Part shown: positions 31,669-33,294 of the stretch, one piece after another
Layout: the number at the start of each line of letters is the position of its first letter
Numbering within the stretch: the stretch's first letter is position 1
Assembly: GCA_031287565.1 (NCBI GenBank)
Contig: JAITSS010000044.1
Span: 1-64,000, forward strand
Length of the DNA: 64,000 nt
From: Desulfobulbaceae bacterium
GTDB taxonomy: Bacteria; Desulfobacterota; Desulfobulbia; Desulfobulbales; Desulfocapsaceae
Direction of reading: 5' to 3'
The notes under the pieces: generated by a model
Told to the model about the DNA's origin: nothing
Database searches by the model: none
The model's input: only the letters and a program-made list of their open reading frames with translations
Translations under genes and position numbers: made by a program

Positions 31669-33294
31669 GTTGATCACATTGCCCCGATTAGAGGGGATTA
31701 CGACTGGGCAATCTTGCAATGTGCAAATATCGCAAGGGTTGATCACATTGCCCCGATTAGAGGGGATTACGACCTTTATTGCCTTTACTATTCCTTCTAT
31801 CTTCTTCACGTTGATCACATTGCCCCGATTAGAGGGGATTACGACTGTTGCTTTATTGAGTGACATGTCCTGCTTCACGTTGATCACATTGCCCCGATTA
31901 GAGGGGATTACGACTATCCTTCCATCCTTATCTATTATTGCACTTTTTGGGTTGATCACATTGCCCCGATTAGAGGGGATTACGACTTTCCAGCTGGGCT
32001 TGCATTGTCGCAAGTTCGGCGTTGATCACATTGCCCCGATTAGAGGGGATTACGACGCCAGCCCGCCCGCTTGGGCTGGCCGGAGACTTCTCGTTGATCA
32101 CATTGCCCCGATTAGAGGGGATTACGACTACTTGCGGCGGGGCCGCAAGTAAGAGAATTCCTCAATGGTTGATCACATTGCCCCGATTAGAGGGGATTAC
32201 GACCAGGGTACGGCGTCGCGGTGTATTCGCCACCGCGACGTTGATCACATTGCCCCGATTAGAGGGGATTACGACAAGAGAATTCCTCAATGAAGTTCAG
32301 CTCACCCTCCAGTTGATCACATTGCCCCGATTAGAGGGGATTACGACAAGAAGAGGCGGCGGTCGTCAAAGCCGCCGCGCGCCAGGTGGTTGATCACATT
32401 GCCCCGATTAGAGGGGATTACGACGATCTTAAGCTCTGCATCGGCCTGCGCCAATTCGCGCGTTGATCACATTGCCCCGATTAGAGGGGATTACGACTTT
32501 TGGCCCGCTGAAAATAATAGCATGCAAGGGTAAAAGTTGATCACATTGCCCCGATTAGAGGGGATTACGACTTGATAAATATTTCCGGCTAGCCCGCCCG
32601 CGTGGGCGTTGATCACATTGCCCCGATTAGAGGGGATTACGACAATAAAGGGGCGGCTGCCATGAAGAAAAGGGCAGCCGTTGATCACATTGCCCCGATT
32701 AGAGGGGATTACGACTACGACTTCAGCTTCCTCCGCTGTTATTCCGAATTGTTGATCACATTGCCCCGATTAGAGGGGATTACGACCTACGATGCAGGCA
32801 ATCGTATTCAATTTAATTAGTAGGGTTGATCACATTGCCCCGATTAGAGGGGATTACGACTTATCCTAGAAGCTTTGATAAACAGGATTTTAGTAGTTGA
32901 TCACATTGCCCCGATTAGAGGGGATTACGACAGCATCCTCTTCGGCCCGGCTTGCGGGCCTGGAATTTGTTGATCACATTGCCCCGATTAGAGGGGATTA
33001 CGACACAGGGTAGGCCGTCGCGACGAACTCGCCGCCGCGTTGATCACATTGCCCCGATTAGAGGGGATTACGACAGAACTCTTCGACGAAGTTCAACCGG
33101 CCCTCTTCGAGGTTGATCACATTGCCCCGATTAGAGGGGATTACGACTTTTGCCGCCGAGGTTGCGCTTCCCGGCGGAAATTCGTTGATCACATTGCCCC
33201 GATTAGAGGGGATTACGACGAAGGCCACCCTGTAGTAGGTGGCTCCCTCGCCACCTACGTTGATCACATTGCCCCGATTAGAGGGGAAACTGTC
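31669..33294 (+). CRISPR. CRISPR array, 23 repeats (22 intact + 1 terminal degenerate), 22 spacers of 33-41 nt
   Basis: 36-nt repeat GTTGATCACATTGCCCCGATTAGAGGGGATTACGAC; CCCC/GGGG hairpin and 8-nt 3' tail ATTACGAC (Cas6-type handle); last repeat at 33259 keeps 28 nt then diverges, so leader is on the left. Confidence 0.98.

Follow-up and report, generated by a model that had tools for sequence, protein, structure and literature searches.

A CRISPR array in the stretch of DNA analysed here (the window; 64,000 nucleotides) contains two pairs of diverged spacers, 9/20 and 8/19, that encode homologous peptides. In both pairs, the best frame is antisense to the CRISPR RNA (crRNA); antisense coding is firmly supported for pair 9/20 and suggestive for pair 8/19. 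The array is most likely of type III-B. We consider it rather probable that its spacers were captured more than once from the same coding-strand sites of related DNA elements, sites that are often prone to form hairpins, and that selection favored antisense spacers.

Array structure and type assignment

In the array, a 36-bp repeat (GTTGATCACATTGCCCCGATTAGAGGGGATTACGAC) occurs 23 times in nearly identical copies, between which lie 22 unique spacers of similar size (33 to 41 nt; Table 1). The repeat has the stem-loop CCCC-N7-GGGG followed by the 8-nt 5' tag ATTACGAC, which are the predicted features of a type III-B repeat processed by Cas6, and the final copy has a degenerate 3' end. On the basis of the repeat stem and tag, the promoter-like site ending at position 31668 before repeat 1, and the degenerate last repeat, crRNAs would be produced from the plus strand, as was assumed in the initial annotation. 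An inverted copy of the repeat (91% identity), which is either a solitary anti-repeat or a relic of an opposed array, was identified ~316 nt upstream of the array, and dispersed palindromic repeats (ATTCCCGCGAAAGCGGGAAT and relatives) are located just upstream.

Table 1. Positions of the array, its spacers discussed in the text, and related elements
Feature	Sequence	Coordinates	Strand	Remarks
Dispersed palindromic repeats	Window	30512-31307		
Inverted repeat copy	Window	31318-31352	-	
Promoter-like site	Window	31640-31668	+	Consensus match only; leader side, abuts first repeat
CRISPR array	Window	31669-33294	+	
Spacer 5	Window	31987-32020	+	Similarity to spacer 11 within chance range
Spacer 6	Window	32057-32092	+	Perfect hairpin of at least 8 bp; match to spacer 13 without coding signal
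Spacer 7	Window	32129-32167	+	10-bp perfect hairpin; 3'-terminal 17 nt identical to 5'-terminal 17 nt of spacer 9
Spacer 8	Window	32204-32239	+	Complement RGGEYTATPYP; 9-bp perfect hairpin; homologue, spacer 19
Spacer 9	Window	32276-32311	+	Complement EGELNFIEEFS; homologue, spacer 20
Spacer 11	Window	32425-32461	+	Similarity to spacer 5 within chance range
Spacer 13	Window	32572-32607	+	Hairpin stretch in common with spacer 6
Spacer 19	Window	33005-33038	+	Complement GGEFVATAYP; homologue, spacer 8
Spacer 20	Window	33075-33111	+	Complement LEEGRLNFVEEF; homologue, spacer 9
Spacer 22	Window	33220-33258	+	9-bp perfect hairpin flush with 3' end; peptide likeness to 8/19 within chance range
Second array of the same genome	L025	525-1236		Beside Cmr1-6 and CorA
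SWIM-Cas4-Cas1	L010	562-2715	-	Pfam SWIM match
SWIM-Cas4-Cas1	L026	139-2157	+	
Best database match	NZ_CP107895.1 (L028)	357163-357200 (4001-4038)		Streptomyces plasmid
29-spacer array	L107	39-2184		

No cas genes were found among the window ORFs scanned. The type III-B assignment is based on a congener in which the same repeat adjoins Cas4-Cas1, Csx1, Cas6, and Cmr genes. At the end of contig C144 of this genome (G095; locus L026), 22 bases of the repeat are present, 21 of which match, ~117 nt before a Cas4-Cas1 gene, which is followed by a Cas2-like ORF (named by eye), a CARF-HEPN Csx1, Cas6, and a RAMP (Cmr1-like) gene and then by a putative Cmr2 start, also named by eye (Pfam gave no match). 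On contig C51 of the bacterium's own genome (L025), the genes for Cmr1-6 precede a gene for a CorA-family protein, and both loci agree with the type III assignment made initially. The Cmr1-6/CorA locus has an array of its own with a different repeat and ten AT-rich spacers without strong hairpins, so the window array may have a different partner.

The sole Cas1 found in the genome is part of a SWIM-Cas4-Cas1 fusion on contig C49 and carries no reverse transcriptase. The RVT_1 domain was not found in this genome, which is 86% complete, nor was a reverse transcriptase found as a fusion partner or neighbour of Cas1, the feature that marks RNA-acquiring (RT-Cas1) type III systems. Cas4-Cas1 proteins with an N-terminal SWIM zinc finger are encoded in L010 and L026; full-length relatives were identified only in these two congeners, and other matches within the class covered only the Cas1 part.

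Homologous spacers and their coding strand

Six-frame translations of the spacers were compared all against all in ungapped BLOSUM62 alignments and evaluated against 25 dinucleotide-shuffled sets; because there were only 25 such sets, significance is given as a score above the shuffled maximum rather than as a P value. The top score over all shuffled sets was 34. Pair 9/20 (EGELNFIEEF and EGRLNFVEEF) scored 46 and pair 8/19 (GGEYTATPYP and GGEFVATAYP) scored 42, both in frames antisense to the crRNA. When the observed number of differences was placed at random, none of 3,000 simulations was as good as the antisense frame of pair 9/20, and the corresponding value for pair 8/19 was P = 0.08.

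The initial annotation had proposed antisense peptide homology for further spacers as well, and these proposals were not supported. Pair 6/13 scored 37, but its peptides match best in a frame of the crRNA strand, and at the DNA level the two spacers agree at 18/20 nt over a hairpin; pair 5/11 scored 22; and the coding test gave no signal for either pair. Spacer 22, considered a third member of the 8/19 group, was absent, against either spacer 8 or spacer 19, from the 40 best alignments of the all-against-all comparison. By themselves, open frames were not biased toward either strand (50 on the crRNA strand and 47 on the other). The claim that all the listed pairs and triplets are coded on one strand is reduced to two pairs, 9/20 (firm) and 8/19 (weak). 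The stem change proposed for pair 8/19 is present: where spacer 8 has T8-A18 on the sense strand, spacer 19 has C5-G15, i.e., U-A is replaced by C-G. However, a single compensatory pair is no proof of covariation, and the adjoining G-C turns into G.T.

The homologous spacers keep their order within the array (8-9 and 19-20). In addition, the overlapping spacers 7 and 9 can be joined into a target of 58 nt, the complement of which reads EGELNFIEEFSYLRPRRK. The earlier suggestion that the host sampled diverged members of one element family was upheld for pairs 8/19 and 9/20.

Similar spacer pairs were also compared in other arrays of the class, with array types deduced from nearby RAMP or Cas7 genes together with the repeat sequence and with orientation assigned from the repeat sequence rather than from transcripts. 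Oriented type III arrays and the window array together contained 19 co-oriented pairs and no opposed pair. Seven of the pairs in these arrays were diverged, and the five with a coding P value of <0.1 were all antisense coded. In type I arrays, 36 pairs were co-oriented and 7 were opposed, and among the diverged pairs the sense frame was called in 4 and the antisense frame in 1, while 3 were opposed. The orientation of type I spacers is set by the PAM, and since the numbers are also small, the comparison provides support rather than proof. The antisense direction expected for type III immunity was seen in pair 9/20 (firmly) and in the callable diverged pairs of other type III arrays and weakly in pair 8/19. 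One of the arrays in the class (L107; 29 spacers) has many overlapping or near-identical pairs, and two of its complementary peptides start with M (MRARVLSVKTWKRNP and MTPEILTPDEAK), possibly reflecting capture near start codons.

Protospacer searches, hairpins, and origin of the spacers

Searches of phage, plasmid, and IMG/VR collections, of the bacterium's own genome, and of related genomes yielded no protospacer. Spacers 5 to 22 were used against the own genome, 98 genomes of the family, and, in the main searches, phages and plasmids; all spacers were used against 398 genomes of the phylum, and spacers 1 to 4 were searched alone against phages and plasmids. Phages were searched with both DNA and peptides and IMG/VR with degenerate patterns; the spacer peptides had no matches in Pfam or PHROGs. 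Several candidates were rejected: (i) the best-looking match among the family genomes (L032) lies in a chemotaxis operon and is a chance match; (ii) a match of spacer 4 in a phylum genome (G160) aligned over just 20 nt on a second test and was taken as chance; (iii) 13 matches from one IMG/VR pattern search had unrelated contexts; and (iv) one match obtained by pattern in GTDB genomes was read as antisense to uvrA. The best match overall was to a Streptomyces plasmid (35/38 nt, E = 1e-4; Table 1). It spans the junction of spacers 7 and 9 and reads NFIEEFPYLRPRR in the same frame as the joined target, from which two of its three differences are synonymous. The matching locus is unannotated, no gene could be recognised there, and a search for homologues gave none.

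The window spacers are enriched in hairpins. Perfect inverted repeats of at least 7 bp occur in 6 of the 22 spacers, compared with 2.2% of 600 control stretches from the window (P = 6e-6), and those of at least 8 bp occur in 4 of the 22, compared with none of the 600 controls. Much of the homology resides in spacers 9, 19, and 20, none of which is a strong hairpin. For comparison, 42 arrays were identified in the surroundings of RAMP genes from other genomes of the class, and in these arrays hairpins of at least 8 bp were present in 3.5% of 666 spacers near type III loci versus 0.47% of 1,074 flanking controls; the enrichment is uneven, with strong hairpins concentrated in some arrays. Resampled spacers were hairpin rich overall (8/40 versus 39/558; P = 0.009), with a P value of 0.08 when the window was left out. 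Type I arrays of the class, found via Cas7 and having mostly type I-C-like repeats, were less hairpin rich than type III arrays, with one exception, L139 in genome G112. In that genome, hairpins of at least 7 bp were found in 10 of the 37 spacers of the type III-B array L088 and in 12 of the 87 spacers of L139, and both arrays are rich in hairpins of 8 to 14 bp. They also have a homologous target in common, SLEKEF/SLENEF (RSQAMALPSLEKEFGDTMKE/SLENEFAQTMGELLDL), and spacers 72 and 78 of the type I array are homologous and both palindromic. Without these two arrays, the difference is modest, with hairpins of at least 8 bp in 2.4% of type III and 0.9% of type I spacers (~2.5-fold; P = 0.02).

According to the explanation that we favor, a type III-B-like array transcribed from the plus strand would have acquired spacers in at least two episodes, an older one represented by spacers 19 and 20 and a younger one by spacers 7 to 9, and both would have taken the same sites from diverged members of one mobile-element family. 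Capture would prefer sites able to fold into hairpins once the coding strand becomes accessible in single-stranded form, and the spacers retained would be those with crRNAs antisense to mRNA, which could function in a type III system. The invader would thus be a DNA element, with hairpins driving capture and selection setting the strand. Several observations speak against this explanation: no protospacer turned up in the collections and genomes searched; the hairpin enrichment varies between arrays and extends to the type I array of G112, without which genome the contrast between type III and type I arrays is modest; the enrichment among resampled spacers weakens when the window is left out; spacers 9, 19, and 20 are not strong hairpins; and overlapping spacers mostly share one orientation in type I arrays also (36 versus 7). 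More tentatively, and with considerable doubt, natural type III-B arrays might bear a lasting mark of such capture, in which the stem end is flush with the spacer end and the conserved hairpins of a diverging family are recaptured, possibly aided by SWIM-Cas4-Cas1.

The strongest alternative is that hairpins are a trait of the targeted elements, i.e., of hairpin-rich genes, rather than of the capture machinery, and that a common and diverse family was sampled often, followed by antisense selection. The G112 arrays suggest this, as both are hairpin rich with a homologous target in common and as two homologous type I spacers are both palindromic; because the type I array is rich too, hairpin content is at least partly a property of the sampled elements. 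As a full explanation, it nevertheless seems unlikely to us, given the difference between type III and type I arrays that persists without L088 and L139 and the position of the hairpins, 16 of which are flush with the spacer 3' end compared with 8.5 expected (P = 0.0045). Acquisition from RNA, e.g., from the highly folded genome of a single-stranded RNA phage, would make both the antisense strand and the hairpins reflections of an RNA target, in line with the strong stems inside apparent coding sequence, the antisense coding of pair 9/20, and the lack of the spacers in phage and plasmid collections. This origin is highly improbable because of the Cas1 type and because no reverse transcriptase was detected in the 86% complete genome; furthermore, arrays with ...CATTGTGAC repeats, some of which are located by long low-identity Cas1 ORFs (candidate RT-Cas1), are not hairpin rich (1/67), and type I arrays acquire DNA, yet that of G112 shows similar hairpin spacers. 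Chance similarity or duplication within the array followed by mutation, which the short, partly G+C-rich sequences and the chance-range scores of pair 5/11 and spacer 22 might suggest, is equally hard to credit, as pairs 9/20 and 8/19 score above every shuffled set, the differences in 9/20 are tuned to one reading frame (0/3,000), and the decay of an old duplication is implausible since the repeats flanking these spacers are identical to each other.

Relation to known type III systems

The proposed capture of hairpin-prone coding-strand sites followed by antisense selection has counterparts in described type III systems. Type III-A adaptation is PAM independent, prefers single-stranded DNA hairpins and the coding strand, and yields spacers near 36 nt (PMC9048733). 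The systems of Streptococcus thermophilus and Staphylococcus epidermidis (Zhang 2021 and Aviram 2022, reviewed in PMC9048733) resemble the window array in that spacers of ~36 nt are acquired without a reverse transcriptase, and they favor hairpin-prone sites and the coding strand, as is proposed for the window array. However, the type III-A results come from laboratory acquisition assays, whereas the window contains a natural array, most likely of type III-B and associated with SWIM-Cas4-Cas1, that is known from its sequence alone. If the same applies to natural type III-B arrays, the spacers in environmental genomes would record where mobile elements have structured hot spots, and spacers that are homologous but diverged could reveal the coding strand and the family of unknown targets without a protospacer.

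The type III-B system of Marinomonas mediterranea is similar in its effector, with which spacers act only if they are antisense, but it has an RT-Cas1 and can acquire spacers from RNA (PMC5576922), whereas the genome studied here yielded no reverse transcriptase. Other type III-B loci, which contain a CorA effector and use SAM-AMP signalling (PMC10600005, PMC12255297), resemble the Cmr1-6 genes and the following CorA-family gene of this genome, although that locus has a separate array with a different repeat. The window array fits and extends known type III adaptation and is not a new system.
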